Shown: positions 15,445-64,000 of the stretch, one piece after another
How the letters are laid out: every line of letters begins with the position of its first letter
Position numbering within the stretch: the stretch's first letter is position 1
The notes under the pieces: generated by a model
Database searches by the model: none
What the model was told of the DNA's origin: nothing
What the model saw: only the letters and a program-made list of their open reading frames with translations
Made by a program: the position numbers and the translations under genes
Source: Cephalotus follicularis
Taxonomy: Eukaryota; Streptophyta; Magnoliopsida; Oxalidales; Cephalotaceae
NCBI GenBank assembly: GCA_001972305.1
Contig: BDDD01006648.1
Location: 18,356-82,355, forward strand
Length of the DNA: 64,000 nucleotides
Direction of reading: 5' to 3'

Positions 15445-17965
15445 TGTTGGGAATGCTCGGCCCGAGCACAGCGGAAGACTTTACAATTCAGACTTAGTGG
15501 TTAAGGGCCGATTAACTTTAAAATTCTCTCAATTGGTTAATCCCTAAGCAATGGGATGCCCTAAGCAAAGTCCAAAAGGTCCCAATAAATTCCAAGGAAC
15601 ATCTAATCAACATCCAATTAAACCGAAACCATAAACCCAAGCATAAGGGCACAACGGGTTGATAAAGCTAGGGTTGCCATAAACCCTAGAATTGGACACT
15701 AACAATGGCTCACAAGGTACAACACACAAAACCCTAACCATGGCCCAATCAACCCTCACCCACATCATCCCTAACCATAAGAGATGAAACACAAAACAAC
15801 ACAAGGGAAAACCATGGTGGTTTTGGCAAGGGTTTCACACACTCACATTAAGACCCACTGCCATGGCACCACAAGAGGGGGAAGAAACAGATTCTTACCG
15901 GAGGTGAAGACTCCTTCCTTCAAGAAAGCTCCCTCTATACTTTATCCAAAAAAAAAAAACCAAGCTCCTCCAAGCGAATCCTCAAGCCAAATATGAGGAG
16001 GATGAAGGCCAAGTGTTTAAACCTAGTCTAAATCACTCTAGGTAAAGATAAGAAGCAGTGTGCAAGTTATCTCCACCTATTATGACATTGGATTGGTGAA
16101 ATGAGGCTTGGAAATGGCTGCTTTAACACACCAGGTGACACAGGCATCGATGCGTAGGAGATAGGCATCGACGCGTAAGAGAGCAGGTAGAAGAGATCGC
16201 ACGGGATGGAAGAGAGAGAAAGAAAGAGTAAAAGTGTGTTCAATAAGTTTCTCTCAAACTATTTATAGTGCTGACTTTCTCTCTCCTACTGTAGCGCGTA
16301 TCAGGCTACTTAGGAGTCAACGCCCAGGATAGGTGTCGATGTCTTGCGTCTCACATTACGAAAAGGAGTCAATGCCAAATATAATATGAAACAAGCACCT
16401 AGTCCATTTGTCTTCGAGTCAATGCCAAAACCCCATGGCGTCAACGCGTAAAGCCCCTGGTTTTTTCAGTGTTAACGCAATGCTCTCCACAGCGTCAATG
16501 CCCAGCAGAATTTCTAGTTTAGACGTAGACGTGATGCCCTCATGGCATCGACGTGCAAAGCTACTGGTTTTTCCAGTGTTAACACAATCCATTCGCGTCA
16601 ACGCCCAGCAGCCCAACTAGACATAGGAGTCAACACATACTCATAGCGTCGATGCCAAAGACAAAGAACAATTTCTTCTGTTTCCAAATAAGCCATCGCA
16701 TGGAATATTTCATCGTGGCATTGTGCCGACCTAAATCCATGCAAATGAAAAACTCACTAGCCAAACAACATATTCCCTGATGTTGTCCTTTCACTAAATG
16801 ATATGTGTCCCACCACATATCAACCTGTTCAAAGTAAGGCAGGACCCGAAAGCATGTCATTCTCCGGTATGATGATAAATTCTCAGTGCACCCCGTCATC
16901 TGGTATGAGCACTCTAACAAGTTACCTACTATCAGAGCACCCCCGGTGTGAGCGCCAGTCACCCCCCGGATCCGTGTATTACCACATCTATCAATCATGG
17001 TCCGAATAGCCATTCGCTTTATCCAGTCATCGGCATATGTGTCATGTTTCCCTCGTCATACATGGCTCCGATCACAGCCTAGGGTTTGGATGAATGACAC
17101 CCCTAGTATTGCTGTGATAGCTATGAATCTATGATCGCACTGAGACTATCGGTAGACCTCCCATGGGAACCTCTCATTCCTGGTCCACCTATGCCTGAAC
17201 AAGACTTTTAACTCCACAACGTACATAGACAAATAGAGCCGGTCACCCTCTGACCGGGTGTGACAATCCCATCTTGCGCACTCGCCTATACATCTCAATG
17301 TAGCTCCCACAAGACCCAAAGACAACCCTTTTACCAACACCTGGCTTGTGATGGAGAAGGTGGAAATCAAAGACAAGCAGTCACCACACAATGCATGCCA
17401 GCCGCTCAGGTCAAAGGAGACAACGCAGGCTATAGACCCACTAGTCACCATAGACTATTAACTAACGAGACCATAGGAATCCTATTGACGTTGGGTATAG
17501 AATATCCAAATAGGTTTCCTATTTGTGGGTTAGTCCAGTGTCATGCACTCTAGCATACACCTCACATTCAGCTTTAGGGATTACCCCAATTGGCTACGAG
17601 ATAACCAATCTCTACTGCTAACCCGAGAGCAAGCTTCACGTGACAAGTCTTCATGGTTCAACAATGGCCCTTAAGAAAGTGAACCTATGACTTGGAACAT
17701 TTGTCATAGGGAATAAGGATCTTATTCTCATAGCCCTCTCAGCAAGAGATCCAACCCTTTGAACGTGACAGGACGCTATTATGGCATACAGTTAATTACG
17801 TATAATTAGTCTGTTCCTTTTGGTTGGTTGGGATGAGCAACATAGCCTTGCCAATATATAAAGATAGACATATAATATAAAAGGAATTCAGAATTATATT
17901 AAATCAAGAGTGTTTATATACAAACGAGCTATATCGTGGCATACAGGGACACCCCTAATCTAACA
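15445..17965 (-). mobile_element. C2 5' LTR, about 2.5 kb
   Basis: On the reverse strand it starts TGTTAGATTAGGGGTGTCCC at 17965 and ends in CCCAACA at 15445, next to the primer-binding site. 17965 down to about 16750 matches the C3 3' LTR (22655-23867). A TATA box (CTATAAATAG, reverse strand) lies at 16259-16268. A GTCGAC-type palindrome cluster lies upstream of it and a smaller one downstream. Confidence 0.85.
16140..16660 (-). repeat. GTCGAC-type palindrome cluster around the TATA box of the Copia LTR
   Basis: More than ten units of the type GGCGTCGACGC or GCGTCAACGC occur, about three near 16145-16190 and the rest at 16315-16660. The TATA box (16259-16268) lies between the two groups. 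The core is the same as in the Gypsy LTRs, although the LTRs are otherwise unrelated. Confidence 0.75.
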
Positions 17966-18056
17966 CCTCCAACTTGTAAATAATAAGTCCATAAGAAGTG
18001 GGGCATATGGTTTTCCTATCGTGGGCCTTCCATAATCATCGTTGAATGATGTGGAT

Positions 18057-18480
18057 ATATTGGGGATGGCACCAGCCAAAGCTGAGGTCCCCCGTATAAC
18101 CATTTCTATTCAATTTTAGTATGAGGTACACTAGAAGGAAATGATCATGTTTTGATACTGTGACAGGCCAAAGCGTGTGGGTGTCAAAACAGATCTATTT
18201 CTTTGAGGGTTGCGGGTTTGACTTATACTAGGATCTTATGGTAACCATCATGCCAAAGCAGAGACCATAAGGGTCGGGAGGCAGAATCTTGTATCGGATC
18301 TTACATATGGGTGAGAGGTCCTAATGTAAATTGGTATTCATACCTACCTATTCAAATGTTATAGTTTGCACGTCCAAAGTTGGGACCAAAGTATTGTGGA
18401 TAGATTCCGATCCCCACTAGCAAGCGAGAGGCTTCCCGAATTCCACATGGGGGTGCGGGATATGATTAGAATAGTGGGAG
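18057..18480 (+). other. C3 leader hairpin chain
   Basis: Successive stem-loops occur: 18057-18098 (GGGGA/TCCCC plus outer pairs), 18149-18190 (ten pairs), 18235-18271 (eight perfect pairs, CTTATGGT/ACCATAAG), 18301-18329 (six pairs), 18361-18394 (seven of eight pairs), and an outer stem CCCACTA/TAGTGGG at about 18412-18478. Loops share a word like CCAAAGCNGAGG or GAGAGG. Function is unknown; packaging, dimerisation or translation control are possible. Confidence 0.65.
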
Positions 18481-18599
18481 GAGACATAATTACAAAAGAC
18501 CAAGTATTATGGTAATAATATAAATGGAATGATTTGCTAATTAATCTCTCTTTTGTTTTCTCTTTTATAGGTTGCTAGTTTTCACCATATTCTGCTACA

Positions 18600-19894: not shown

Positions 19895-19959
19895 ATTGTT
19901 TTAACCATTCAAACTGGAACAAGCACTAAAAGACAACGAGAGATATGCGATGTAAACCC

Positions 19960-22600: not shown

Positions 22601-22639
22601 AGTGACATGGGCTTAGGATATAGATCGTCGTGGCTATAG

Positions 22640-23867: not shown

Positions 23868-24039
23868 TGTAACGCCCGTAATTTTCATGTACTGTAATTT
23901 CACAATGTAATTGTACCTTATTTGTGGAATTAATAAAATGATGGATTTTTCCAAATTTGATGATGTTTTCCAGAACTATAATGATGTTGTTTTTAATCGA
24001 GTATACACTTGGAAGTGTGGTTACTTGGCAAATAAACTG

Positions 24040-24195
24040 GAGGCAGTCGACTGGCACGGGAGACCAGCCGACTGGATGACTGCTTGTGGAGGCAGTCGAC
24101 TGGTGGGATGAACCAGTCGACTAGCCAACTGTCGTGACACTTGGCAACAAACTGCCAGGCGAACAGCTGACTGCCAGGGAAAGGCAGCTGACTGG
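24040..24195 (+). repeat. CAGTCGACTG palindrome cluster, U3 side of the G1 LTR
   Basis: Six units stand within 150 bp; the first (24044-24053) and third are perfect 10-bp palindromes, the rest have one or two changes such as CAGCCGACTG and CAGCTGACTG. The cluster ends about 240 bp before the TATA-like word. Confidence 0.85.
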
Positions 24196-25009
24196 ATCAT
24201 GCTCTATTTTATTGTATGTGGCAGAAATCACATGTTACAACTGACATTGGAAGTAGAGGCCATCTGTGCTTCATGCAGCCAAATGGATGGAAGGAGAGGA
24301 CACCTGTGCATCATCCAAAACTACATGGGGCAGAGAAATCAGACCTGTGAGTGTATGCATGCATGTGAATGGGAGAGGGTGGCATTTAGTGCCATGTGAG
24401 GAGTGAAGGAAGAAAAGAAGGAAGGACTCTGCATAAAAAGATTCCACCCATCCTCTCTCGTACTAGTACTGAAAACTTAGAGAACCAGGGAGAATTGTAA
24501 GAGAAACCACAAGAAAAGAGGGAAGAGGAGTGTTTTTCCATTATTGAAGCTTGGAGATCAAGGTTGGAACTGTCCTTGGAGCTGCTGGGCTCGGAGTTGG
24601 AGCTTCTGGAGAGCTCAGAACGTCACTGATTGGAACGAAAAGAGGTGGACTTACAGATTCCTAACTTGGAATCAAAGGTAGGGGAAGTTGTAATGGCATT
24701 TTGAGTTTAAACTTACTGCATGTTCCATGATTCGAAATGCCTGGTTTCGTGAGTTGTAGCCAATGAATTTTGAATGTGGTTGCTACTGTTTTCAACTACT
24801 CTGCCTGCCTACTGAGAATCAATGTGATTATTGTACATACATGTTGAACCTTATATGGCTTTGGCTTGCATGATGGAATGAATGTTGGATAAACTGTTAT
24901 ATGGATGATACGACAACCTGTAGTTGTATCCCTGTCCTAGAGCCTGAATTATCTGCTTACCATGATCCGTTGGAGTAGATAGATCGATTTGTATGCCACT
25001 GGTTCGCAG

Positions 25010-25275
25010 AGCAACCGACTGTCGAAGGAAGAAAGTCGACTACTCAATTAGACCAGTCGACTGCCAATGGAAAGCAGTCGACTGCTCATACTTCATACTG
25101 CCCAGAAATGGTAACCTGGGAAACGTTCTCGTATGAGTGTACTGTAACAGTCAACTATTGAAGAACAACAGAAGACTGCCTAATGGACAGTCGACTGGTA
25201 GAAGGAACCAGTCGACTACTGATACTGCTCAACCCAGAACAGTCGACTGGTAAGGATTCCAGCCGAATGGTTGGA
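25010..25275 (+). repeat. CAGTCGACTG palindrome cluster, transcribed side of the G1 LTR
   Basis: About ten units stand at 25014-25270. They are separated by irregular 15-50 bp spacers and often lie as close pairs. The copy in the 3' LTR (29900-30160) is conserved. Confidence 0.85.
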
Positions 25276-26558
25276 CTGCTGTTTGCCTAAAAAGATGCGA
25301 AACGATCCCGGTTCCTGCTAGGATGCATTTGAGCATTTGTATGCATTGCATATATACTATTTACTGCCTGTTTGTACTGCTTGTACTCAAATTATGATTT
25401 CTAATGTGTTGTTACTTTAGAAATGCATATGTGAATTGAGACTGCTATTTTGAGTATAAACGAATATTGATATCGTATTTTCAAACATCTTTGGAAAGCG
25501 ATTTCCACTACTGAAACTGTTTAAAGATATTTTCTACTGAAAATGCAATATTTCAAATGTTGTCACTTTTGAAACATTTTGGAAATAACCTGCCTGTTGT
25601 GGATCTAAACGATCACTACTGTCCTGTTTACTGTACTGTTACTGCTTGAATTCTCTGTTTGCTCTGTGAATTGTTATGTGTTTGTGCTTGAGCCACTAGC
25701 TGCATGGCGGAGGCTGCCAGCGCCGGTTAGTGGTAGGGTTGACCTAGGGGCCAGGAGTATGGCTGGGTAACTCACTGTACTGTTGCCTCGCTCGGTTGCC
25801 TGAAGTAGGGACCGGAGTAGGAGTGTAGCGTGGGGCCAGGAGTTGACGGCGTTACACATACTGCCTGTTGTTGTGGTCCTATATGGACATCCTGTACTGC
25901 CTGTTAGTCCTTCTCGGACATTACTGTGCTTGATGATGTAGCCATGGCCGGGCTACTACTGTACTGTTTCTGCATACATATATTTTCTTATATATGTACC
26001 CACTGATATTTTACCGTACTGTTAAATATATATTTTTTCATATATATATAAACTGGAATTTCTACTGTACTGCATCATCCATGCATCCATATCATGACAT
26101 GCATTTAATTTTAAACCCGAACTACTTTTATGACTTAGCCGAGTGAGGACAAAGGCTAACCCCCTACTTTATAGATTGACGCAGTGGACCTGTTGGATTG
26201 GCATGGACGAAGAGCATGTATTATGTTGTTCTAGTTTTACTATTCTCCTGTTGTGTAATAACTGAGTTGTTAAGGAGTTTCTGATGTATCGTTCTTATGG
26301 ATGTAACTTGTGATGGATTTAAACTTGTACTGTGGATCACGCTCCGTTTTGCGGGCGATTAACAATATTGGACTTGTTGGGTAGCGTGTAGTATGGGATG
26401 CACGCTATGGATTTTACAGCTTATGGATATTTTATGCTTCCGCAACTGATTTCTGGTTTAAAGTTTAAATTTTATGGTTTTTAAATGAGCTGTATTTATG
26501 TGTTAATTGCCCTTACTGCTTAAATGTTACCTTCTCTTTAAAAGGGGTGTGACAAGCG

Positions 26559-26570
26559 TGGTATCAGAGC
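26559..26570 (+). other. G1 primer-binding site
   Basis: TGGTATCAGAGC, complementary to the initiator tRNA(Met) 3' end, lies four bases after the LTR end. Confidence 0.9.
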
Positions 26571-26633
26571 ATATTCCATATATGCTTAGCTAGGATATTT
26601 TCCTTAGCAATTGATGAATTATTTCCTAAAGTC

Positions 26634-28292
26634 GTGACTGGCCGTCATCCTTCTTATAGGAAAATGGACCGAAGGAGAACTCGAGCTAGGGCTAGAGCTG
26701 CTGAAGCTAATGCCCCTGAGGAAGCTAATATTCCGCAAGGGATGAATATTCCCCAAGACGACAGAGATCCAATGGCCCGAATTGTGGACTATTTTCAGCA
26801 ACAGATGGCCTTTAATAGGGCTAATGCGGAGGAGATGCACCAGCACTACGCGCAATCTCGACCACAACATAGGGCTCCCGACCTTTGCCCGGGGGAGGAT
26901 GGTACCCAGTTTGGGAGAGATATTGAGAAGTTCATGAGGTTGAATCCACCCAGATTCAAGGGAGAACTTGATGCTACTGTTGCTGAGAGATGGCTGCAAG
27001 ACCTGGAGAAGATCTTTGAAGCGATGGACTGTACTGATGCTCAGAAGGTGAAGTTTGCTGTATACCGCCTATGGGGCGAGGCCACTCATTGGTGGGAAAT
27101 GGTTAAAGAAAAATGGGAATCACAAAGACTGGACAGTACTTGGGACAGATTCCAGACGGAGTTCTTGGAGACTTATGTTCCGCATATTGAGCAAGAGCGA
27201 CGAGAGACTGAGCTTTTGGAGTTGCGACAGGGTGAGATGACTGTGGCTGAGTATCAAGCAAGGTTCATGGAGCTGGCCAGACATTCACCTTATCTGGTAG
27301 CTGATGAATCGAAGAAGATACGGAGATTCCTGAGAGGTTTGCGACCGGATCTTCGGTCAAGGATTAGAGCTATGGAGCTGAGGACTTTTGTGGAGATTGC
27401 TCAGAAAGCCAGACTGTTGGAGATGATATCCAGTGAGGACTGGGCTGAGAGAGCTCACGCACAGCAGAGTAAACAGAGTCCTACACAGTCCCGACCAGAA
27501 TCATCGAAATGGCAAGATGGTGGTTCTCCGACGAAGTCGTCTAAGAACAAGACTCAACAGACAGCTTCGCAGGGTACTCCTAGCCAAGGGAGTAATGCTA
27601 GATCCGGAGGTTGCTATTACTGTGGTCGTACCGGTCACCAACAGAAAGAATGCTGGAGGTTCAATGGCTGGTGTTTGAGGTGCGGGGCACCTGGTCATTC
27701 AGTGAAAGATTGTCAAAAGAGTTCTGCTACAGCGCCTACAGGGTCGGGGAGTAGTAGCGGTGCGGCTGCGGGACCCTCACAGAGGAAGGACACCGGCAAG
27801 GGCATCGCAAAAGGTAGAGTTTTTGTACTTGCTCAGACAGAGGTTCCAGAGTCGACTTCTGTTGTTGGAGGTACTCTGTATATATATGGTTTTTTTGCTA
27901 GAGTATTGATGGACTCTAGAGCATCGCATTTCTTTATATCTGCACATTTTACATCTTGCTTAGATATCACCCCTGACTGCATGTCTTATATACTTGATAT
28001 GAGCACACCGATTGGGACTTCTATGTATACTGACTCGGTATATAGGAGTTGTGAGATGTCTATGGCAGGCATTCCCTTGTATGCAGATTTGATTGTGCTG
28101 CCTATTCGTGACTTCGATGTTATATTAGGGATGGATTGGCTATCGGCACACCGTGCTCGTATGGATTGCTACCATAAGACTGTGGATTTTTGTCTGCCCG
28201 ACGGAACAACTTTTCAGTTCGAGGGAGACAAGGGGTTCTCGACACCGCTCATATCTTTTATTCGAGCATCGAGATACCTGGAGAAAGGATGA
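26634..28292 (+). pseudogene. G1 Gypsy gag and protease
   Basis: This is one long open frame (552 codons; a second in-frame ATG at 26664 starts the basic 'MDRRRTRARARAAEA'). Residues about 95-260 form the retrotransposon gag domain ('AERWLQDLEKIFEAMDC', 'FAVYRLWGEATHWWE', 'FLRGLRPDLRSRI'). Two CCHC zinc knuckles follow (CYYCGRTGHQQKEC, CLRCGAPGHSVKDC, about residues 325-365). A retropepsin-like domain then ends in 'FDVILGMDWLSAH'. It encodes the capsid and processing enzyme of the element, within a broken element. Confidence 0.9.
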
Positions 28293-28343
28293 GAGGGATA
28301 CCTGGCATATGTAATTGATCGCAGGAAGGAGAAAAGTTTAAAC

Positions 28344-28756: not shown

Positions 28757-30435
28757 TGTAACGCCCGTAATTTTCATGTACTGTAATTTCACAATGTAAT
28801 TGTACCTTATTTGTGGAATTAATAAAATGATGGATTTTTCCGAATTTGATGATGTTTTCCTGATCTATAATGATGTTGTTTTTAATCGAGTATACACTTG
28901 GAAGTGTGGTTACTTGGCAAATAAACTGGAGGCAGTCGACTGGCACGGGAGACCAGCCGACTGGCTGACTGCTTGTGGAGGCAGTCGACTGGTGGGATGA
29001 ACCAGTCGACTGGCCAACTTTCGTGACACTTGGCAACAGACTGCAAGGCGAACAGGCGACTGCCAGGGAAAGGCAGCCGACTGGATCATGCTCTGTTTTA
29101 TTGCATGTGGCAGAAATCACATGTTACAACTGACATTGGAAGTAGAGGCCATCTGTGCTTCATGCAGCCGAATGAATGGAAGGAGAGGACACCTGTGCAT
29201 CATGCAAAACTTCATGGGGCAGAGAAATCAGACCTGTGAATGTGTGCATGCATGTGAATGGGAGAGGGTGGCATTTAGTGCCATGTGAGGAGTGAAGGAA
29301 GAAAAGGAGGAAGGACTCTGCATAAAAATGTTCCACCCATCCTCTCTCGTACTAGTACTGAAAAGTTAGAGAACCAGGGAGAATTATAAGAGAAACTACA
29401 AGAAAAGAGGGAAGAGGAGTGTTTTTCCATTATTGAAGCTTGGAGCTCAAGGTTGGAACTATCCTTGGAGCTGCTAGGCTCGGAGTTGGAGCTTCTGGAG
29501 AGCTCAGAACGTCACTGATTGGAACGCAAAGAGGTGAACTTACAGATTCCTAACTTGGAATCAAAGGTAGGGGAAGTTGTAATGGCATTTTGAGTTTAAA
29601 CTTACTGCATGTTCCATGATTCGAAATGCCTGGTTTCGTGAGTTGTAGCTACTGAATTTTGAATGTGGTTGCTACTGTTTTCAACTGCTCTGCCTGCCTA
29701 CTGAGAATCAATGTGATTATTGTGCATGCATGTTGAATCTTATATGGCTTTGGCTTGCATGATGGAATGAATGTTGGATAAACTGTTATATGGATGATAC
29801 GACAACCTGTAGTTGTATCCATGTCCTTGAGCCTGAATTATCTGCTTACCATGATCCGTTAGAGTAGATAGATCGATTTGTATGCCACTGGTTCGCAGAG
29901 CAGCCGACTGTCGAAGGAAGACAGTCGACTACTCAATTAGACCAGTCGACTGCCAATGGAAAGCAGTCGACTGCTCATACTTCATACTACCCAGAAATGG
30001 TAACCTGGGAAACGTTCTCGTATGAGTGTACTGTAACAGTCGACTGTTGAAGAACAACAGCCGACTGCCTAATGGACAGTCGACTGGTAGAAGGAACCAG
30101 TCGACTATTGATACTGCTCGACCCAGAACTGTCGACTGGTAAGGATTCCAGCAGACTGGTTGGACTGCTGTTTGCCTAAAACGATGCGAAACGATCTCGG
30201 TTCCTGCTAGGATGCATTTGAGCATTTGTATACATTGCATATGTACTGTTTACTGCCTGTTTGTACTGCTTGTGCTCAAATTATGATTTCTAATGTGTTG
30301 TTACTTTAGAAATGCATATGTGAATTGAGACTGCTATTTTGAGTATAAACGAATATTGATATCGTATTTTCAAACATCTTTGGAAAGCGATTTCCACTAC
30401 TGAAACTGTTTAAAGATATTTTCTACTGAAAATGC
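28757..30435 (+). mobile_element. G1 3' LTR, left 1.68 kb
   Basis: It aligns with 23868-25546 with scattered substitutions. After CTGAAAATGC at 30435 the sequence switches to the reverse-strand gag of G2. Confidence 0.9.
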
Positions 30436-43210: not shown

Positions 43211-43771
43211 GGTGTGATATTGTGGGCTAACCAAATTATTTTAAGAGTGCAACACACCACTTAAATTTTCCGTCGTTTTTTGTGTGTTATATTGTCAATT
43301 GAAAACGCTTTTGTACGTACTGATTAAATACCAGTCCTTTCTGCCTATTCTTTTTACGTTCAGCTTGCAAAAATAATTTTAGTGGTCCTCAGAACTCTTG
43401 CAGATATTCAATTATTTATATTGGAAAGAAAAAGCGGTCACCGATTGTCAAGGCTCATATGCTCTACGTTTCTTAGTATAGTTTTATGTGTGACAGTGAA
43501 CAAGTAAAAACTTTGCGTAGACTGGTCTTGTAACTTGTGAAAGAAAATAAAGTTGGATTCAATTTTTGGAATATCCAATCACCTTTGTTCATCACAGTTG
43601 CTGATGCATATAAAAAATCAAAGCCAACCAAATTGGTTCCCATTTCTCATTGTTAAACATCAATACGAGCATTGAATTTCCCACCACCATTTCTCTTGAG
43701 TCTACTATGTTTCATTTCATTTCAGACTTATCCTGAAACTGGAGATTTGGTAGTCCTAAGTAGGCGACATA
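43211..43771 (+). other. Short intergenic gap between the two host genes
   Basis: It holds the presumed 3' UTR of the transporter gene. AATAAA at 43546-43551 is the best polyadenylation signal candidate, 336 bp after the stop. The remainder must include the promoter of the PPR gene. No other gene was seen. Confidence 0.45.
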
Positions 43772-51722: not shown

Positions 51723-52974
51723 TGTCACACCCCGTTTTCCTTTCCATTAAGTAAATATGGTTATCAGTTAATCCAGCATTTACTAATAATAGAAAATTTT
51801 TAAACTTACGCAGAAGCATTCAATAATACTGGATTTAAATAAGCGCATACGCACGCAACCCATACTACGTGCCCAAGCTCAATAAAGTACATGTTATATA
51901 TTATATATCAAAAATGTAAACATAACGTAACGAAGCATGACTTATTACAGTACAATATAACAACCTTAAAACAGAAGCCTTCAGCTATAAGCTTCAACAA
52001 CAAGTCTCCACCTACCTTCGTTAATCTGTAATTGTAGGGGTTAGCCGTTGTCCTCACTTGGCTAAGTAGGAAATATGCATGAGTATGAATATATAAATGA
52101 CATCATGCCTGGCAGTTTATATCTTTAAAACAGTGTATATATATATATATATATATAAGCAATCATGCCAAATGGCTATAAACAGTCAGTCATTAAGCAT
52201 ACCGCACAAGGGTACAATCAATCAGTTGCCCGAAGACCAGTAGTGGGTGTCATCTATCGCTAACTCTTAGCCCCAACGATGCACCACCTAACTACCACCA
52301 TGCACTCCGATGATGATAGAAAAGGTAAACAGAACTGTCGGCACTTGGCGGGCAGCTAACAGTCAGGATCTGCAATGCAGATAAGTTTGCTGTATAAGCT
52401 CTAGCCAACTCCTAGCACCTAGGTTCACCACCGCAGTCCGTGACACACTCCGATCACAAGACCATCGGCAACTATCAATCACAAATAGTACAGTCCAGTA
52501 TAGATATTACATATATAATATGTGATATAACAATAGTTTTCTTTTAGAAAACGGTAAAACAGTTCAGTAAAATCTCTTTTGAGAAAACGGTAAATAGTTC
52601 AGTAACAGTGTCTCTCATTGGAGGAAAATAGTACAGTGCAGTAATTCTCACTTGGAGAAAACAGTAACAGTACATCTCATAGGAGGGAACAGTAAAATAT
52701 AGTAACAGTGGAAAAACCTTCAAAAGTACTTATAGTACTCAGTTCCTTGAAAATAGTAAACAGTAGTTTATGCATATAGCACTCAGTCTTTAAAACCTTT
52801 AAACAATAATATTTGTATCAATTACATTGATAGATATAACTATCAATAATAGAATAACATTCAGTGATATGCAATTCAGTCAACAGTACAATCATTGATG
52901 ATTCTAAGAATCAAACCAGTGAAATGCAAGCAAATATATGCACAGAATGCAAAACAGTCCTTTTGGCATCAAAG

Positions 52975-53360
52975 TGTATCTTATGCGTCGACGTGTATAT
53001 AGGCGTCAACATGTTTCCCCTTTTGGCGTTAACGTAAAACAGTGTATAAAAAGGATATCATCAACTGTTCTTAAGGCGTTAACGTGTATCCTAGGCGTGA
53101 ACGTGTATATAGGCGTCAACGTTATCACTAGACATTAACGCGTTAAGGTAGGAACCTTGAGCGTTATCTTTCTCTTTAGCGTTGACGCGATAAGGAAGGA
53201 ACCTTATGCGTCAACGTGTTCCTTAGACGTCAACGTGTTCCAAGACAGTGACTTTGGACGTCAACGTTATCCTTCCTTGGCGTCAACGAAAATCAAACAT
53301 ACACAGGTAACCATTGTCTACCTCGGTATCGCGTTAACGTGCAACATTGGCGTCGACGTA
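52975..53360 (-). repeat. GTCAAC/GTTAAC/GTCGAC-type cluster in LTR G4, transcribed side
   Basis: About fifteen units of the type GGCGTCAACGTGT or GCGTTAACGTGT occur in under 400 bp. They are CpG-decayed relatives of GCGTCGACGC. Confidence 0.75.
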
Positions 53361-53944
53361 AATCATACAGAACAGAATATGCAGTCCATAAATCGGTTCA
53401 AGCAAGCATGGATTCAACAACTTAGCATCAACATGCAAACACAAATAACCACCTTAACACAATACACATGCTATATCTTCATAAACATGTCATAAACCCT
53501 ACCTTTGATCCCAAGTTAGGAATCTAAGTCCACCTCTCTAAGCTTTATTGACCAGCAGCTTCTCCCAGCTCCCCGATTGGTACGGTTACTCCAAGTCCAG
53601 GTTCCAACCTTCAGTTCCCAACCTTATCTTCCTGGCGCAACAATGGTGGAATAACCACTCCTTTCTCTCATTGTTTTCCTTCTCTTTCTCTTATGATATC
53701 AATAGAAGGAGATGAATGTAAAGGTGTGTCTTTATGGAGGAGTCCTCTCTTTCTCTCCCTTCCACCCGCATTCATGGCGCCAAGCGCCTCTCTCTCTCTC
53801 CTTCTTTCCTCTGTTGATGTGACAGCCACCAGCCACTTCTATCTTCCCTTTTGACATTGCAGAGCATGGGGAAGAGATAAAGTACCTTTAACTTGGTCCT
53901 TCATGCATCTTCTGTCAGTACTTTGTCTTATTCTGCCGACAGTT

Positions 53945-54150
53945 TAGGCATCGACGCGTTGACCTTTCTTCACAGCGCTAACAGGCTCTAGCGCACTGCA
54001 TTAACGCTTATCCCTTTTCTCCATTATTGGTGTCAACGTCATGACTTGGAATCAACATCTTAAGGCCTCTCCTTCACTCAACTCGTGTTAAAACACATGT
54101 TCAGTTCATGGCGTCGACATCATTTGTTAGCGTTGACGTCTATGCGTCAG
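53945..54150 (-). repeat. GTCGAC-type cluster in LTR G4, U3 side
   Basis: About seven weaker units occur (for example 'ggcatcgacgcg', 'ggcgtcgacat', 'agcgttgacgtc'). The TATA-like word near 53735 separates this from the other cluster. Confidence 0.65.
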
Positions 54151-54337
54151 ATTTTTTTTTTCCTTAAGCTATTTTAATTTAACTTCAAATTTTATTCAAC
54201 TTAGTCCTTAACCCATTCGATTAAACTCTTAATAATAAAATTAGCTTAATAAAAAGGACAATTAACATGAATTCCAACTCAATATATATTTTATTCATCA
54301 TTTATACAATATATATTAAATTGAATTTGCGGTTATT

Positions 54338-56529
54338 ATTAGATGTAGTGACTCGACAAGCCATTGGATGGACTGTCGTTTTATATCTATTCTTGTCTTA
54401 TTCCTTATATATGATGAGTGCTAATTTATTATGGCAATATCACTTGTGTTTTATCACTTAATTGAAGTAGTTTATTATTTACCTGCTTACACTTATGATG
54501 CCCTGACATAAGGTTGGATGCCTAGCATGGAGGCTGTGAGATAGGTTACCTTATTCCTTATGTCAAATTAGTTCCAAGTCATAGGTTCACTTTGTAGGCA
54601 TTAGTGAACCGGATAGACTTGCGCATATGTTACCTGCTCATGGAATTAGAGGATGGATTCTGTCACTACCATCTGTGTTGGACACTAGGGCAAATACGGG
54701 GTGTGAACTGGGAGCGTGTACACTGAACTGGACCCACGTAGGAGACACTATTTGGATAGTCGCTATTCTCGTGTCAGTAGTGACTCCTACTTGTTGCTGT
54801 CGAGTATAAGTGATGATCACTAAGCGAGTTCTCAAACTCATCTGATCCTTAGACCTGAGCGACTGCTCTATATTGTATGGAGACGGTTATGCTTTGATCT
54901 CCACCTTACCTGGTCCTTACGCAGGGCTGGAAATTGGGTGGTCTTTGGGTACGATCAAATCTATACGAATATAAGTGAGTGCGCAATATGGGATTGTCAC
55001 ACTTGAGCGAAGGTGATCGGCTCTATTATGATCTGATTATACTTTGGACTTATGAAATCCTTGGCCAAGGTTGAGGTAGACTGGAAATTAGATTTCCGGA
55101 GAGTTTACCAAAGGTCCTAGTAATGATCAAATATTTTAGTCATTGAGGTATTATCTATGGTTGACACATATCCTTACCCTAGACCTTAATCGGGACCAAG
55201 CATGACAAGGGATTATAGTACACATGAACCGACGCCTTAGAAAATCTATGGTTATTGAGGTGTGTAATAAATTATGAAAAAATTAATTAGATTAATTTTT
55301 CCATCTGGATAATATTAGATATTATTCTGATAGTATTTAAATTGGTCAAGGACTATTTAGAATGGCTAAACCGAACCCTAGGGGTATTTCGATAATTTAT
55401 GAGCACCTCTGGTTTTAATCAAGATTTTATAGGGTCCCTGCCCAATAATGATTAGATCTTTAATATGTTAGACATATTAAGGCTTTGTGTCAAATATCGG
55501 TTATGTGGATTTTGCATTTTGTGGAAACACATTTGTTTGATCTTACTTAATTAATATTCAAAGGGTACATGATATCACTAAAGGAGTTAGACTCAAAAAA
55601 CCTCACCTGCCAGGAAAAGCGTCGACGCCTTATGGGAAAGGCATCGAGCGTTATTGTGTTTTTAGCGTCAACGCCTTCTGGGAAGTGTAAACGCTTAACA
55701 CTTGTAAAGACGTCGATAGCGTCGACGTTTTTAGTGCCACATTACATAAGCGTCGATGTCTTTTGCCAAGCATCGACGTCTTTGAGTAGGACGTGCAACC
55801 TATGCACGAACTCACTTCGCGGGCACGTTTTCTCTCTCATCTCCAGCAGTTATCTCCCATTCTTGCATGTTATGGGAACGTGGGGATCATGACCACAGAC
55901 TCCTTAGGAGTGAGGACCATGATCCTAAGTGAATGGGAGAGTGGGAGAGAGAAGAAGGAGGCTAGTGATAATAAAAATCTGCAGATTTTAAAAGAGAGGA
56001 GGGTTGAGTTTTTTGCTGGACAAGAGTAGTTCGGATTTCTCTCTGCAGATTGTGTTCCCTTCACTGTAATACACCAAGCAAGTTCTTGTCTAGGGTGAAT
56101 TGATTTTGGCTAAGTCTTGTCAATGTCAATTTACTCTTCTCAAGCTTAAAGAGAGAGTGAGAGAACTTTGTTTTTAATCTTGCTGGTTGGAGTAGATTCT
56201 GTACCAGGGATTTTGGCAGCAACAAGTTTGGTATCTTCCCAAGCGTGTAGCGGCAGAGATAGAAGGAGCCTTCACCCGCTGGTATAATATCTTTGTCTCA
56301 TTCTCTTATTGTCATGCTTGTGTGTGTCACCATTGCATGCTATGGTGACACCAATTCAATCATTGTAATGATGTGGTGATCCATGTGGTCTGCAGACTTG
56401 CCATAATGGACTGTATTTGATTTTATTGGGTGTTCTTCCGCTGCCATGTTTGTATGATTAATTTTTGTTCTACACCCTATATGCCTAAGTCCGATTATGG
56501 CTCCGGATTTGGATATTCCGATTCCATCA
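54338..56529 (+). mobile_element. Copia LTR of the C1-C3 family, plus orientation
   Basis: 54500-55470 aligns with the C3 LTR (22860-23800), including 'ttccaagtcataggttcac' near 54571. The end CATTCC/ATTCCATCA lies next to a primer-binding site at 56531. It holds a GCGTCGACGC cluster at 55615-55790. Confidence 0.75.
55615..55790 (+). repeat. GTCGAC-type cluster in the Copia LTR
   Basis: About seven units occur (for example 'gcgtcgacgcc', 'gacgtcgatagcgtcgacg', 'gcgtcgatgtc', 'catcgacgtc'). They are of the same form as in C2 and in the Gypsy LTRs. Confidence 0.75.
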
Positions 56530-56530
56530 G

Positions 56531-56541: not shown

Positions 56542-56689
56542 AGTCCCACATCATCCTTAGTTGGATTTATGCCTTAGATGATATACTGATTAAAGGTTTA
56601 ATTATGGATGTGTTTGTATGGTTAAACTTGATTTTAAAAGTGCCTTAGTGAAAATTGCATGAAATTGGATTTCATAATGTTTAAGACCT

Positions 56690-57936
56690 GGGGATTTTGT
56701 TTTAAAGCGTCGACGATCTTAACCTAAGCGTCGGCGCTTCTGGCGTTCTTACGAATTCCAGGAATAAATCAAAATAGGGCATGCACAATTTTCATTCAAT
56801 CTCAGTCCAATTCAATCATGCAATCAAGTATTAACCATCACAACACATTATACATGTTATATGTTCAAAAACATGTCAAAACCCCTACCTTTAAAGCGCT
56901 ATCCCGAAATCAATTTGGATTGATTTCTCTCTCTATGTCAAAATGTTCTTCACTCTCCTTCAATCTTCCAATCCCAACAATTTTCAGTCTATAATTGCAT
57001 TTTAACAGAGGATATATACATAAAATCAGAATGTATATACAAATTAGTTACTATAACCATTATCCGGTTTGAATCAAAAGGATTATAAAAACTTCTAAAC
57101 CTCTAATCCTATTTAAATCAATTATCCATTTTCAATTAACTTCCACAATCCATCTACAGACTTGCATGTTCAATCAGTAGTGTATCATTGATATCAACAT
57201 GTTACATAATCATCAACTTAACCACAAGTGAACTTTGCACTAATGACTTACCAATTCCCAGGTGATGCTCCAAGTTCCACTTTGAACTTCAAGTCCCTTC
57301 TACATGCAATCTCAGCCACTGTCCAATTGTTCTTCCTATTGCTCAGTGTTTTCTAACACCCTCATTCAATCTCCCACAGTTGATATAAAGGCTCAACTTG
57401 TGTCTTTAATTTCGTCGGTTTCCCTTTCCTTCATTGCACATTTCTCTTTCCCTCATGCGTGCATTCTTCCTTTTGTTCTTTTTCTTTAATTTCTGGCAGG
57501 TTGCAGGTTTCAGGCTTTTAGGTCACATGCAAGGCTCTATCCTTGCATGTTACCCAGCTGGTGAAGGCTTCTGGTGTGTATTGACTCGTTTACAGGACAC
57601 TTAGCTCACATGGAATCCATTTGGCGCCACTGCTCTGTTCTAACAGGCGTGTATCACATTCCTGACACCGCGCACAACGTCGACGATTTTCTCTCTGGCA
57701 TCGGCGGTTTGTGCGTCATAACTCAGCCTATAACTGTGCGTTTTGTACACGTGTCTGGGCTTAAAGCGTCGACGGTATGGCTTTAGGCGTCGGTGGTTTA
57801 GCACCAGATCTCATTTTTATTTAAGAATTTATTCCAATTTTCATTCTAATCAAAAGATAACCAACATAAGGTCTCAAAAGTATATTTTATTCATCGTTGG
57901 GTACAAAATACATGAATTGAAATTGCGGTTATTACA
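56690..57936 (-). mobile_element. Gypsy LTR piece G5, reverse orientation
   Basis: The right end GCGGTTATTACA (57925-57936) equals the end of the G4-type LTR. 'acccctaccttta' near 56882 corresponds to 53498 in G4. The left boundary is approximate and no TGTCACACCCC end is present. It holds GTCGAC-type units near 56705-56745 and 57675-57800. Confidence 0.6.
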
Positions 57937-58682
57937 TTATCTCTCAAATAAACAAGAACAACAATAGGCTAAGGGCACACAAAGAACTTTGATATAGAGC
58001 TTTGATGATCTTGGTATAACTTTGCAATTGATGTTGTTTTCTCTTTGTATATTGATCACTTGTGTTCTTGTTGTTTTTGTTCTTCTTGTTCTCTTTGTGT
58101 ATATAGCCATTTTTGACTTGAAGGATCCGTTGGTAGTGTCTTGGGGCTTGTTGCTTAAAAGACGGCGCATTAAAAATCTGCCAGAAATTGTCTCCAGTGC
58201 GCAAAGCGTCGACGGTGTTCTTCAAAGCATCGACGCTTATATGACCGTTGGAAGTTTGAATTTGAATCTATGCTCTAAGCACTAACGATCTTGAACTTTG
58301 GGATCGACGGTTGTCCTCAAAGCACTGATGGTTTGAGTTGAGCGTCGACGCTTTGGGTAATTTTGATTAGCCCAAAAGTCCCTGGTTTTAACCGCTGAAG
58401 TAGCCCTCTTAAGCGCTGGCACTTGGCCTCAAAGCGCTAATGCTTTCCTCAGAGCGTCGACGGTTGGAAAATTTCTTCATTGCTCGGTTGGCGCTTTGTT
58501 CCCAGCTTTCGACGGTTGTCCTTAAGCGCTGAAGCTTACATTTAAAGCGTTGACGCTTTAACCTGTAATTCCAATTTTCTGGTTTGTTTTGCGACATTCT
58601 TTCTTTTCTTGCACTTAAAGAAACTTTGTTAAAATACAAATATGTTATCATCAAAACTAGGATTGAGACATAAATGTCAACA
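57937..58682 (-). mobile_element. Sirevirus-like Copia 3' LTR, cut by G5
   Basis: On the reverse strand it begins TGTTGACATTTATGTCTCAA at 58682 and runs on until the G5 insertion. A TATA box (GGCTATATACAC, reverse strand) lies near 58095-58107. A dense GTCGAC-type cluster lies upstream of it. The same LTR start, in plus orientation, reappears at 63800. Confidence 0.7.
58200..58560 (-). repeat. GTCGAC-type palindrome cluster upstream of the Sirevirus-like TATA box
   Basis: More than ten units occur. AGCGTCGACGCT at 58341-58352 is a perfect 12-bp palindrome. AAAGCGTTGACGCTTT lies at 58544-58559, and the identical 16-mer occurs inside the element at 60712-60727. Confidence 0.85.
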
Positions 58683-59941: not shown

Positions 59942-60210
59942 GGTATAAGCCTCTATGTGGGTTACTTCATCAAAACCACCGGCCTTTGGTAAATGTGTGT
60001 GGCTACGACTCGGTGTAAAAACCTATGATGCAAACTAAGTTTTCTAGTGTACATTCGTTGCATCACATAAGCATTTTCTCCAAACAACATTCGCACACAT
60101 TCTTCTTTGTTAAATTGATCCTTAATAATCTAGTTTCGTTGATTCCATCCCCTAGCACCTTCACACGGTATCTCTAAAATTGAAGCTAAGGTTGCATAAG
60201 TGAACTTAAT

Positions 60211-60567: not shown

Positions 60568-60697
60568 GTTTAGTGATTTCAGTGATGTATATGTGTTTAT
60601 CGAAGAGAAATCGTTCCAAAATCGCCAGAAATTGGTTTTTGGGGGTTTAGAGTTCTAATTTTTGCGCTAAAAATGTTTGACATATGAAGAAATCTGT

Positions 60698-60900
60698 CTT
60701 ATAGTCCGACTAAAGCGTTGACGCTTTTTCTTAAAGCAGCGTCACTTTGTGAAATTTTAAATTTCGAGCTCTAATTTTAGTGTTAGAGCGCTGACGCTTG
60801 AATTCTAGGCGTCGGCGCTTTGCATGTTTTGCAAAGTTCTAATTCTAAGAGCAGTGTTAAGCGATGATGCTTAGATTCCAGGCGTCGGCGCTTTGCTCTG
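60698..60900 (-). promoter_or_regulatory. Possible internal promoter ahead of the extra reading frame
   Basis: On the reverse strand a cluster of about six GCGTCGACGC-type units (60712-60895) is followed by CTATAAG at 60698-60704. The ATG at 60567 lies 131 bp further. The layout copies that of the LTR promoter of the same element, including one identical 16-base unit. Inference from layout only. Confidence 0.5.
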
Positions 60901-61049
60901 TTTTTCTGCCGATTTTACCAATTCGTGCATGAATGAATGCAAATGATGCATTAATGAACAAACAAGCATATCAAGTAAACATATATTAACATACCAATCA
61001 TGTTAATCATTCAATTTCACACAACCCTAATTCTAATCTAAATTTCTAG

Positions 61050-61449
61050 AAAGTTTGTTAATCTAAGGGTTTTATGAAAATGTTTGCGATTTGTTCTTGA
61101 GTCGGAACAAAGATTAATTCAATGTCACCTTTCTCAATATGGTCTTTTATAAAATGATACCTAATATAAATATGTTTTGTCCTAGAATGATGTACGAGAT
61201 TTTTGCCTAGACAATTTGCGCTAGTGTTGTCACACATAATCGGAACTTTTTCAAAATTAAAGCCGTAATCAAGAAGTTGTTGTTTCATCCACATTATTTG
61301 TGCGTAACAACTTTCGGCGGCAATGTACTCAGCTTCGATAGTAGAAAGTGCTACCGAATTTTGTTTCTTGCTAAACCAAGAAATAAGCATATTGCCTAAG
61401 AATTGACAAGTGCCACTTGTACTTTTTCTATCTACTTTGTAACCTCCGA
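61050..61449 (-). pseudogene. Sirevirus-like Copia RNase H and end of pol
   Basis: Reverse-strand words 'RYIGGYKVDRKSTSGTCQFL', 'WFSKKQNSVALSTIEAEYIAA', 'CDNTSANCLGKNLVHHSRTKH' and 'VPTQEQIANIFIKPLD' give a clear Copia RNase H. The sequence stops at an inserted LTR at 61450. Confidence 0.85.
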
Positions 61450-63799
61450 TGTAACGCCCCAGATCCGAGTTCACTTTATGCTCAAAGCAAGTCTCGAGGG
61501 ATCGGTGCGTTACGTGAGGGTGAAACCTATAATCCTTTAACAATCTTACTAATTGCTAATATTTATTCAATTTCTCACATAAATAACTTGCAACTTGTCA
61601 TACTAAACTTTAAAATATTATACTCTCATTGAAATCATCATAAACCATAACAATTATAGTCAACATCTTACATCTACACAGGATCTGTCATAAGGAATTA
61701 TACATCGGATAACATTAGTTTATAATGTCATAAACTGTTTATACAAAATGTTATTTCATAACATTATTTCTTTCCGAAATATCATTTATGAGCTCATGCT
61801 AAAGCTCGACTTTCCTCGTTCAACCTCTTCCTGGAAAATTTTAGTTGAAAACAAAACATTGAAAGGAGTGAGCATCAAAATAGCTCAGTAAGAATTATCG
61901 TAATAAAATATTATTGAAATTCATTTTCTGGTATTTTTATAAAACCAGTACATTTCACATTCATTCATCTCTTTCTGACCATATCTCATGAACCAGAACA
62001 TTTCATAAATAATTGAGGGGTTTTAAAGAGTCGACGCTTTGGGCAACGGACGACGCTCTAATTGTAAACGTCGATGCATTGAAGTCAAGTGTGTCAATTG
62101 ACCTGGATGAAGACTTAAAGCGACAACGCTTTGTAAGAAAGCGTCATTGCTTTAGTCGGGATAGAAGTGGAGAACTCAGGTTAAGCACGTGACGGGCGAC
62201 GCTTAGGGAGAAAAAGTCGACGCTTTGAGCTACAGACAAAATGCAAAATCTGACTCTTTGGCATTTTGTGAGTGAAAATCTTTAATTTTTGACATGTGGC
62301 AGGCCAGGGGAGGATGATATGAGATGTTATCAGATGATCTAACAAGTGTCATCACTTGGATTGGTTGAATTTGAGCACATGGGCTGCCAAGAGAGAGAGT
62401 TGAGTTGTGTGAGAAGGGGAGAAGACTTGCCTCCCAAGTAACCCTTCTATTTAATGGCAAAGGGGGTTGAACTCAGTCATTTTGGCTGAGAAGGGAAGTG
62501 CTCCTGCTGAGAGTGAAGTGGAGAATTCGTGGGAGAGCAAAAGAGAAAGAAATTCTAAAGCAAAGTAAGGAAATTCTATACCCATTTTCTGCAAAGTATT
62601 CCCCTGTTTTACTTCAAGTTTTATAGTAGATTGTTCTATTGATATCTTGCTCAATTCCTGATGAATTTTTGAATGGTTGGATGTTCTGGAAACTTTAGGA
62701 TGTACTCTTCAACTTTTATGCTTTGCATGTTTCAAGATTCTATCGTTTTCTTGATGAAAATTCATGTTTTAAATTCCTGTTTGGGTACTGTTTTATTCCT
62801 GGATTATGCAACAACTTCTTTAAATCATATCCTGATCGTTTCTTAATGAAAAATTAAATGGTTGGATGTTTTGAAAACCTTAAGATGTTCTATTTAACTT
62901 TTATGTTTTATGTATCTCTAAATTCTATAGAATTCTTGATGAGAATTGATGTTTCATTTTAATGCTCAAGCCATGTTTTCATATGGAACCAACCACTTTC
63001 AAAAAATTCATAACGGATTCAATTCTAAGCCAAATGTCATGATCTTGAGCTTTCTGAATTCTTAAAGAGGTCTAATTTAATGTTTATGTTTTAAGTTTTA
63101 TCTTAAAATTCTTATTTCTATATGAATTATCAGTATTAGAAAAGCTACGCAAAACTGTTTTTATGAACTTATTTGAGTCAATTACTCAAATGAAGAGAAA
63201 AGTTTATGAATTGTGAAAGAAATGTTATGAAATGATTTTTATGAATGCTTTGAGCTAATCACTCAAAGTAAATGATGAATCAACCTCCCTTGGATTTCTA
63301 TCCAAGGGGAATGGAGCGAGATGCTCAATGTTAATGGAGCGAGATGCTCACGGACATGCATGTGATGTAAGGATAGTAGTCGGGGTGCACAATACCCCGA
63401 TGAAGCGGTGTAAAGGGTTCATTAGGGTTTTTATGACTTCTATGTTTATGAAATGTTCTAGTTACGAGTTTGTAATTAGAAAATTGATATACTTTACGAA
63501 ATGTTCTAGTTATATGTATTGACTAGAAAAATGTTATGATGAAATGTGTTTAAACACCTTACTGAGCTATTTTGAGCTCATTCCTTTAAATGTTGTTTTC
63601 AAATAAAATGTTTTCAGGAAATGAATGAATGGAGATTACAAGCTTAGAGGAAGCTCTTAAGAAGGAGTTTTTGTGAAAGAAAGGCTATGCAATGATGTTT
63701 GCATAAATGTTTTGATATGTAATAAGGACAAAGTTTTTCCGCTGTATTATATGTTATGATAAAGAATGATCCTGTGTTAATGTAGACCAACGATATGGT
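61450..63799. mobile_element. Two Gypsy LTR pieces in opposite orientation (G6)
   Basis: 61450-about 62000 starts TGTAACGCCCC and reads as the reverse-oriented end of an LTR ('tgagcatcaaaatagctcagtaag' area near 61870). From about 62000 to 63799 the same LTR type runs in plus orientation. It has palindrome units at 62030-62230, a TATA-like word (CTATTTAATGG) near 62447, and 'cttactgagctattttgagctca' near 63559, the mirror of the left piece. The right end is lost at the next LTR. Confidence 0.6.
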
Positions 63800-64000
63800 T
63801 GTTGACTATTTAGTCTCAATCCTTGTTTTGATGATAACATATTTGCATTTAACAAATCTACTTGTTGTGCAAGGAATTACAATAGAAGTACCAAAGTAAA
63901 AATACCATCTGCACAAAAGACATTGATCTCCCAGGAAAGAAGTCGACGTCCGTACTAAAGACATCGACGCCTTCCAAGAAGACATCGACACCTTTGATGC
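63800..64000 (+). mobile_element. Sirevirus-like LTR, plus orientation, leaves the window
   Basis: TGTTGACTATTTAGTCTCAATCC is followed by 'tttgatgataacatatttg', matching the reverse complement of 58682 down to 58640. A GTCGAC-type cluster starts at about 63940. Confidence 0.7.

Follow-up and report, generated by a model that had tools for sequence, protein, structure and literature searches.

Palindromic units similar to those described here are known from Sireviruses, in which the RM boxes, short palindromes repeated many times within an LTR, in most cases have CpG at the core and together form CpG islands (Bousios et al., 2010; PMC2829016). In that study, RM boxes are described as specific to Sireviruses, number at least eight units in the published elements and lie upstream of a conserved TATA box; of 13 elements, 12 have CGG-CCG as the core, and some carry additional boxes ahead of their envelope gene. 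The RM of a Vitis Sirevirus, CGGTCGACCG, has GTCGAC at its centre, and the authors could not name a binding factor common to the boxes. For maize Sireviruses, a role of the palindromes in attracting silencing through small RNA was proposed. The VANC targets of VANDAL DNA transposons are short motifs accumulated in non-coding DNA, and they diverge jointly among related elements (PMC5735166, PMC10398659). The hexamer itself is known as a host site from the Arabidopsis FT promoter, where binding of FD to GTCGAC and to GACGTC was shown by ChIP and by site mutation (PMC13360168).

The arrays found in the window (the whole 64,000-nucleotide stretch of Cephalotus follicularis DNA that was analysed) resembled RM boxes in consisting of palindromic, high-copy LTR units, with strict counts (RTCGAY, GTTGAC and GTCAAC) of nine in L005, eight in L008 and seven in window positions 58208-58681, where the seventh unit lay at the LTR start and looser units raised the numbers. 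Looser units lay between a Copia RNase H-like remnant and an ORF remnant in envelope position (60711-60904), the latter with only a sub-threshold Transposase_32 match and no established ENV identity. In contrast to RM boxes, the core was GTCGAC, flanked on the outside mostly by T or G, and the Vitis form was not enriched (50 sites genome-wide versus 191 for the control). A relation to TATA words, assessed over LTRs of all classes, did not exceed chance. Arrays were not confined to Sirevirus-like elements but also occurred in LTRs that adjoin Gypsy coding sequence for gag, protease or RT (Gypsy B of the window, L021 and L022) and in long-LTR Copia elements (window and L021:818, the LTR of the latter being so classed by 84% LTR identity with the window element). 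Helical phasing was evident here, whereas the available portion of PMC2829016 makes no mention of it for RM boxes. Unlike the palindromes described for Sireviruses, the same core here ran across Gypsy and Copia LTRs, in hundreds of thousands of copies within one genome. A search of one open-licence library found no description of GTCGAC palindromes in retrotransposon LTRs and, for palindromic repeated motifs in gypsy LTRs near the TATA box, the 2010 Sirevirus paper as the sole match; a GTCGAC motif was named in three papers, one of which concerned plants.

Enrichment of GTCGAC and placement of the arrays

GTCGAC ranked first among palindromic hexamers both in the window (42 sites versus 4.9 expected from dinucleotides) and in 20 other 10-kb places (99 versus 15.5), and 849,481 sites were present in the whole genome. 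A neighbour within 130 bp was found for 99 of the 141 sites of window and sample, compared with about 18 if sites were placed at random, and runs of at least three sites with gaps of at most 250 bp occurred in 11 of the 20 other places. This excess and clustering ruled out chance or base composition as the source of the arrays and bore out the sequence-only reading as to where clusters lie in the window (Table 1). Its figure of 6-16 units per cluster, however, was reached only when looser units were included, strict counts in the ten intervals concerned being 3-14. The LTRs that carried arrays were of Ty3/Gypsy, long-LTR Copia and Sirevirus-like Copia type; 7 of 18 anchored LTRs contained no array. 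A scan of the window against Rfam gave no family at gathering score.

The claim that clusters lie just upstream of a TATA word was not borne out. Of the 13 LTRs considered, which came from all classes, 8 had a TATA-like word at a distance of 40-350 bp past their upstream array, versus 6.6 expected for random positions of the same LTRs, and TATAWA alone was noted in 3 versus 4.4 expected. In Sirevirus-like LTRs, the distance from array to TATA word was 108 bp in the window and 92 bp in L005, while no TATA word occurred within 350 bp of the array in L008. Further units were observed beyond the TATA word CTATAAATAG, at 16145-16180.

Table 1. Array-bearing LTRs and arrays of GTCGAC-type units in the window
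Feature	Position	Strand	Remarks
Gypsy family A LTR	1021..4006	-	unit type AAAGACGTCGACGTCTTT; two arrays, first partly duplicated
Gypsy A array 2	2210..2710	-	
Gypsy A array 1	3470..3840	-	
Long-LTR Copia LTR	15443..17965	-	primer-binding site at 15442
Long-LTR Copia array	16316..16653	-	54 bp before TATA word CTATAAATAG (about 16,267)
Gypsy family B LTR	23868..26550	+	unit type CAGTCGACTG
Gypsy B array 1	24044..24190	+	CAGTCGACTG and CAGCCGACTG units
Gypsy B array 2	24983..25262	+	strict-unit gaps 52, 21, 21, 73, 40, 21, 31 bp
Second Gypsy B LTR copy	28757-30435	+	97% identical
Second copy, array 1	28933..29080	+	
Second copy, array 2	29872..30151	+	
Gypsy-like LTR C	about 52361-54336	-	classed by LTR similarity; no internal ORF attached
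LTR C array 2	52987..53357	-	
LTR C array 1	53950..54137	-	
Second long-LTR Copia LTR	54345-56530	+	
Second long-LTR Copia array	55621..55777	+	TATA word not found after array
Gypsy-like LTR D	56680-57937	-	
LTR D array 2 (tentative)	56709..56740	-	assignment uncertain because units also lie 178 bp past Copia primer-binding site 56531
LTR D array 1	57679..57800	-	
Sirevirus-like LTR array	58208..58558	-	LTR start about 58682; 108 bp before GGCTATATACAC (about 58,105)
Looser units	60711..60904	-	between Copia RNase H-like remnant and ORF remnant in envelope position
Looser array	62030..62230	+	after TGTAACGCCCC LTR-start word, about 61451
Array at window end	63942..63996		cut off

Over 2,544 bp, the Gypsy A LTR shared 89% identity with that LTR of L021 whose downstream ORFs match Gypsy gag and RVP_2. 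Downstream of the Gypsy B LTR were a primer-binding site, at 26559, and an ORF that gave the same two matches (26553-28289). On the internal side of the first long-LTR Copia LTR, 15278-13442 matched 8620-10459 (68%), a stretch with Copia gag at 9738-10601. The Sirevirus-like LTR of the window was 81% identical over 536 bp to that of L008, which precedes Copia gag.

Helical phasing of the units

Array units tended to lie on the same face of the DNA helix. In 20 arrays without common 14-mer blocks, pair distances peaked at 10.38 bp (bootstrap 10.25-10.55) with a phasing power of 71, the maximum in 1,000 random placements being 16, and contig C1, for which the first 100 GTCGAC sites were used, gave a period of 10.30 bp (power 33), or 10.26 bp (power 32) when two evident second copies were left out. 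Genome-wide, 174,792 pairs were spaced 19-22 bp apart versus 6,252 at 24-27 bp, and 9,171 were spaced 30-33 bp apart versus 1,677 at 35-38 bp. Phasing was imperfect, off-phase spacings of 27-28 bp being noted, by our own reading, in 10 of about 100 listed places. In L012, nine GCCGAC and three GTCGAC units formed a single row with 10 of 11 gaps at 20-21 bp.

Plain satellite-like growth, in which a segment about 21 bp long is duplicated in tandem, might be suspected from the short period-21 arrays that Tandem Repeats Finder reported at 16142, 25034, 29901 and 63943. Odd turns were as common as even turns, however (3.9 and 4.0 pairs per spacing value, compared with 0.85 for half-turns), and linkers were poorly conserved, with 36% identity within arrays versus 32% between arrays; the corresponding values for unit flanks were 50% and 36%. 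Conservation of a whole unit including its linker, as in a satellite, was thus not seen, and the equality of odd and even turns together with weak linker identity ruled out simple 21-bp growth, leaving this kind of origin with hardly any credibility.

The observed period (10.25-10.55 bp) matches the helix repeat of B-DNA, that of RNA helices being roughly 11 bp. A period of roughly 10 bp is typical of nucleosomal DNA, and the spacing might reflect nucleosome rotational positioning or another constraint of DNA structure that involves no specific factor. Against this, a specific word with constrained flanks recurred while linkers varied, and the symmetric flank form CGGTCGACCG was not enriched; this reading is therefore considered very improbable. 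Only slightly better placed is the possibility that the palindromes act in RNA, as hairpins or dimerisation sites, or else as sources of small RNA that attract silencing. In maize Copia (Sirevirus) families, LTR regions rich in palindromes are described as hotspots of small-RNA mapping (PMC5311732), but the period observed here was that of B-DNA and not of an RNA helix and, in clustered sites, clear symmetry outside the core was limited to the first flank base.

On balance, we are inclined to read the arrays as enhancer-like rows of putative host-factor sites that would drive or regulate transcription in several LTR-retrotransposon lineages. A sequence-specific DNA-binding protein of the host would occupy the phased units, and same-face copies would let bound proteins touch one another or a common partner, probably in a promoter setting and with activation as the presumed outcome rather than repression. 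Spacing of this kind would be a physical trace of proteins aligned along the DNA, and its occurrence across unrelated families suggests that these families borrowed one kind of DNA-binding protein. Given the phased and shared core, the role of LTR palindromes, which is an old open question, therefore becomes directly testable.

Flank types, core variants and exchange between lineages

Two flank forms were abundant genome-wide, CAGTCGACTG with 197,377 sites and GCGTCGACGC with 73,186, while CGGTCGACCG did not exceed its control, which indicates that the choice of flank is constrained. In all nine LTR copies of Gypsy or Gypsy-like type, both arrays agreed in majority flank type (T or G, the G-type class pooling GC and GT), these copies being non-independent in that two came from one element and others were related. 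The call rested on three half-sites each for L015 array 1 and LTR D array 2, and 5 of 12 half-sites in LTR C array 1 belonged to neither type. In a Gypsy LTR, two arrays about 0.5-1 kb apart thus had one broad flank type in common, and the match suggests that the same factor serves both.

Flanks had been taken as family-specific, and they did differ between families: Gypsy A and Gypsy B, which are 77-79% identical in gag/protease, differed in flank type in both arrays. G-type flanks were nevertheless found in Gypsy and Copia LTRs alike, so flank type was not strictly bound to family. The accompanying claim, that variant cores are one-step CpG-decay forms, fitted the GC and GT flank types and failed for the CA...TG type. 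Thus, among 19 distinct contexts of CA-6-TG variants, 14 were T2C (GCCGAC, the usual variant), 2 were G1A, 3 were T2A/G and none was CpG decay, which ruled out decay as the sole source of variants in these units; among 35 variants in looser YA-6-TR frames, 18 were T2C, 4 G1A, 5 CpG decay and 8 others. Between the LTRs at 23868-25546 and 28757-30435, 57 substitutions were counted, including 6 CpG transitions, too few events for a comparison of CpG loss in units with that outside them.

The concerted difference between Gypsy A and Gypsy B arrays, which lie in non-coding DNA, resembles the behaviour of VANC targets (PMC5735166), and the units might be addresses for an anti-silencing protein encoded by the elements. 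VANDAL elements are, however, DNA transposons with an element-encoded binder and family-specific motifs, whereas one core was common here to several unrelated LTR lineages. In addition, Pfam revealed no DNA-binding regulator in the 26 of 33 window ORFs and 20 of 36 sample ORFs that were scanned, and we regard such addresses as improbable.

Arrays may also have spread as LTR segments exchanged by recombination or template switching, by transfer rather than convergence and possibly with the same function. In support of exchange, the L010 LTR was a mosaic that shared 79% identity with Gypsy B over 693 bp on the 5' side and 79% with Gypsy A over 1,158 bp on the 3' side, the switch lying around array 2, and Gypsy A and long-LTR Copia arrays fell into one 14-mer group through common G-type units. 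Matches between superfamilies were short, however: among 14 LTR stretches compared, those of Gypsy A or D with Copia measured 30-43 bp and those of L005 with L010 measured 74 and 19 bp, the longest cross match (110 bp) being a Copia LTR that carries a Gypsy B insertion. Linkers, moreover, were poorly conserved even inside arrays. A single exchanged block with alignable flanks, named by the sequence-only reading as a finding that would overturn it, thus lacked support between Copia and Gypsy; inside the Gypsy lineage, an alignable LTR backbone and the recombination visible in L010 indicate that exchange contributes. As an account of the arrays in general, exchange is unlikely, if less so than the addresses considered above. 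Under the host-factor reading, use of the units across lineages would stem from convergence, from exchange of LTR segments or from both.

Candidate host factors

The idea of a shared factor that would bind GTCGAC, which had been put forward from the sequence alone, gains indirect support from the helical phase of the units, the weak conservation of linkers and the agreement in flank type between paired arrays. DRE/CRT-type sites have the sequence RCCGAC, and the barley CBF site is RYCGAC; DRE/CRT sites are usually single, non-palindromic and located in stress genes. Because GTCGAC, GCCGAC and some ATCGAC units fit the half-site RYCGAC, a DREB/CBF-type AP2/ERF protein is a candidate. A bZIP protein such as FD may be another, by analogy with its published binding to GTCGAC, and both GTCGAC and GACGTC were contained in the AAAGACGTCGACGTCTTT unit. 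The FD sites are, on the other hand, single sites in one gene promoter, and GCCGAC, frequent here, is absent from the FD motifs named in the available part of PMC13360168. The same open-licence library contained no bZIP ChIP-seq report that named both GTCGAC and the C-box.

More tentatively, many Gypsy and Copia lineages might have come to rely on a single family of host transcription factors as their driver, by means of helix-phased arrays with two matched flank types, a possibility that we hold to be real but doubtful. If so, the approximately 0.7 million excess sites would be a genome-wide sink for the factor, linking element success, factor dosage and control of host genes. Even one host factor that served several unrelated lineages would represent clear regulatory convergence among transposons, and the arrays would be a large natural decoy for it.

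Additions to the sequence-only reading were helical phasing, the matched flanks of arrays in Gypsy LTRs, the second copy at 28,933-30,151 and the looser units at 60,711-60,904.

GTCGAC counts in the window and across the genome

Palindromic hexamers were counted in the window and in twenty 10-kb places (L005 to L024), picked by round coordinates, of the same genome (1.577 Gb in 9,746 contigs). GTCGAC ranked first in both sets, with 42 occurrences against 4.9 expected from dinucleotide frequencies in the window and 99 against 15.5 in the sample. Among sample hexamers with at least 12 occurrences, only CGACGC (8.4-fold) and CGTCGA (6.7-fold) exceeded it in enrichment, and both are found within G-type units, i.e., short palindromes with a GTCGAC-like core in which the next outward flank base is G rather than T (T-type). 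Runs of at least three GTCGAC, with gaps of up to 250 bp, were present in 11 of 20 sampled places.

Genome-wide, exact GTCGAC sites numbered 849,481, against about 0.12–0.13 million by our extrapolation of the dinucleotide expectation of the sample. Relative to reversed words, which are rough controls because they are poorer in CpG, exact sites numbered 197,377 against 939 for CAGTCGACTG, 73,186 against 121 for GCGTCGACGC, 4,083 against 18 for AAAGACGTCGACGTCTTT and 3,552 against 5 for AAAGCGTCGACGCTTT. Given such controls, the counts for CGGTCGACCG, a form known from a Vitis Sirevirus (50 sites against 191 reversed), indicate lack of enrichment and not active exclusion. For the same reason, CAGCTG (231,366 sites) is an unfair yardstick for GTCGAC.

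Arrays in Gypsy and Copia LTRs

Nineteen primer-binding sites were noted in the window and sample. Among the 18 LTRs anchored by such a site, an array lay within 3 kb upstream in 10 and the result was ambiguous in one (L018, with five units but one GTCGAC); no array was found within that distance in the remaining 7, i.e., two small Copia LTRs (window 39398 and 40183), L006, L009:8077, L019, L020 and L021:3792. The LTR of L014 lies beyond the stretch edge, and its array is between the primer-binding site and gag. Element class was taken from Pfam matches of open reading frames past the primer-binding site or from the other bases listed in the table. The array-less L006, L019 and L020 are Gypsy elements too; thus, arrays are not universal among Gypsy elements.

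Elements, arrays and neighbouring features
Feature	Location	Basis or observation
Gypsy class	window Gypsy B; L021:7454; L022	Pfam: Gypsy gag, protease or RT
Copia class	L005; L008; L014	Pfam: Copia gag and/or RT
Element classed by LTR similarity	L010	
Element classed by primer-binding site alone	L015	
Long-LTR Copia	window	DNA similarity to neighbouring Copia gag
Sirevirus label	window, near 58682	PPT/LTR junction of the kind in the available text of PMC2829016, and similarity to L008
Conserved stretch between Gypsy LTR arrays	window ~24674, 53506, 2954	Ends in (A)AAGGTAGG; resembles splice donor
Leader array, ~300-530 bp past primer-binding site	L014:390-571	Copia gag and RT
Leader array, ~300-530 bp past primer-binding site	L021:284-519	Belongs to L021:818, Copia by LTR similarity
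Single row of twelve units	L012:879-1141	Nine GCCGAC, three GTCGAC; gaps 20-21 bp (ten) and 49 bp (one)
Mosaic LTR	L010:3241 (reverse)	5' part 79% identical to Gypsy B, 3' part 79% to Gypsy A
Looser AAAGCG...CGCTTT-type units	window 60711-60904	Copia RNase H-like remnant on one side, ORF remnant in envelope position on the other
ORF with caulimovirus coat-protein domain (PF22909)	L007:6657-7856	Probably endogenous pararetrovirus remnant
PPR-DYW gene among retroelements	window 43760-46048	Open frame of 763 residues
Large inverted repeat between elements	window 7867-8277	410 bp, 82% identical to own reverse complement

In the Gypsy and Gypsy-like LTRs with a known start (A, B, C and D), the first array (array 1) begins 165–200 bp in and the second (array 2) at 980–1300 bp, with an (A)AAGGTAG word between them in B, C, D and both copies of A. 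Array 2 may lie in a leader intron, if (A)AAGGTAGG is a splice donor.

The sequence-only reading had placed the clusters just upstream of a TATA word. Of 13 LTRs, 8 did carry a TATA-like word 40–350 bp past their upstream array. It was CATAAR at 219–339 bp in five of them (both copies of Gypsy A, along with B, C and L010), and the others had one at 54 bp (long-LTR Copia) or at 92 and 108 bp (two Sirevirus-like LTRs); none occurred at that distance in L022, D, two long-LTR Copia and L008. Since 6.6 of 13 were expected at random positions in the same LTRs, that placement was not borne out and the TATA relation does not locate the promoter.

Helical phasing and matched flanks

For analysis of spacing, units were RTCGAY, GTTGAC or GTCAAC with gaps of up to 130 bp. 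The 33 arrays of at least four units in the window and sample fell into 20 groups after those with at least 12 common 14-mers were joined, and each group was represented by a single array. The strongest period among 313 pair distances of 10–130 bp was 10.38 bp (bootstrap over arrays 10.25–10.55) with a power of 71, whereas random placement of the same unit numbers never exceeded 16 in 1,000 runs. Phase was kept in 210 pairs at least 45 bp apart (10.42 bp, power 34). Tandem duplication of 21 bp does not account for this spacing, because odd and even turns were populated alike (3.9 and 4.0 pairs per spacing value) and half-turns sparsely (0.85). Identity within and between arrays was 36% against 32% for linkers and 50% against 36% for unit flanks.

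Phasing was repeated among the first 100 GTCGAC sites of one contig, C1 (102 pairs, 10.30 bp, power 33), also after removal of two evident second copies (91 pairs, 10.26 bp, power 32). Genome-wide counts, which are weighted by family copy number, gave 224,538 GTCGAC pairs at 10–40 bp, with 174,792 at 19–22, 6,252 at 24–27, 9,171 at 30–33 and 1,677 at 35–38 bp. Off-phase spacings of 27–28 bp numbered 10, counted by eye, among about 100 genome-wide matches listed.

Arrays 1 and 2 had the same majority flank type in nine of nine Gypsy or Gypsy-like LTR copies, not all of them independent. Both were T-type (CAGTCGACTG) in Gypsy B, its second copy, L010, L022 and L015 and G-type (GC and GT pooled) in Gypsy A from the window and from L021, C and D; typing involved three half-sites each for L015 array 1 and D array 2, and 5 of 12 half-sites of C array 1 were outside both types. 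Gypsy A and B are 77–79% identical in protease and gag, yet differ in flank type in both arrays. G-type units were noted in Gypsy A, C and D as well as in long-LTR and Sirevirus-like Copia, and both types in L012, an element without class assignment. The mosaic LTR of L010 switches around array 2 and is, judged by similarity of its two parts, visible LTR recombination near an array.

Core variants, candidate factors and Sirevirus boxes

Variant cores had been ascribed to one-step CpG decay, which held in part. Such decay was frequent in GC-6-GC frames (9 of 21, plus another 7 G-to-A, which in that context are CpG changes as well) but absent from the 19 one-step variants noted beside 21 exact cores in CA-6-TG frames of distinct context, where 14 were T-to-C (GCCGAC), 2 G-to-A and 3 T-to-A or T-to-G. 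The 35 variants in looser YA-6-TR frames comprised 18 T-to-C, 5 CpG decay, 4 G-to-A and 8 others. The L012 row mixes GCCGAC and GTCGAC mostly at 20–21 bp, and GCCGAC therefore behaves like a full array member.

The best-supported reading is that these are arrays of putative transcription-factor sites, which the element lineages may have come to share through convergence or exchange. The site form of barley CBF factors is RYCGAC, which the tolerated cores GTCGAC, GCCGAC and ATCGAC would fit. According to the available text of PMC13360168, the bZIP factor FD binds GTCGAC and GACGTC in the Arabidopsis FT promoter. CBF-like or FD-like proteins, if either, are thus candidate factors.

The closest counterpart in the portion of the literature available is the Sirevirus RM box (PMC2829016). 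Compared with RM boxes as described there, the Sirevirus-like arrays are alike in build and unlike in core, while the Gypsy and long-LTR Copia arrays break their Sirevirus-only feature. The variant seen here consists of LTR palindrome arrays that span superfamilies, keep helical phase and have matching flank types. The looser AAAGCG...CGCTTT-type units may correspond in place to the RM boxes that this text describes upstream of ENV. Among neighbouring features, the PPR-DYW gene had its best named relatives in rosid plants (about 60–63% identity).
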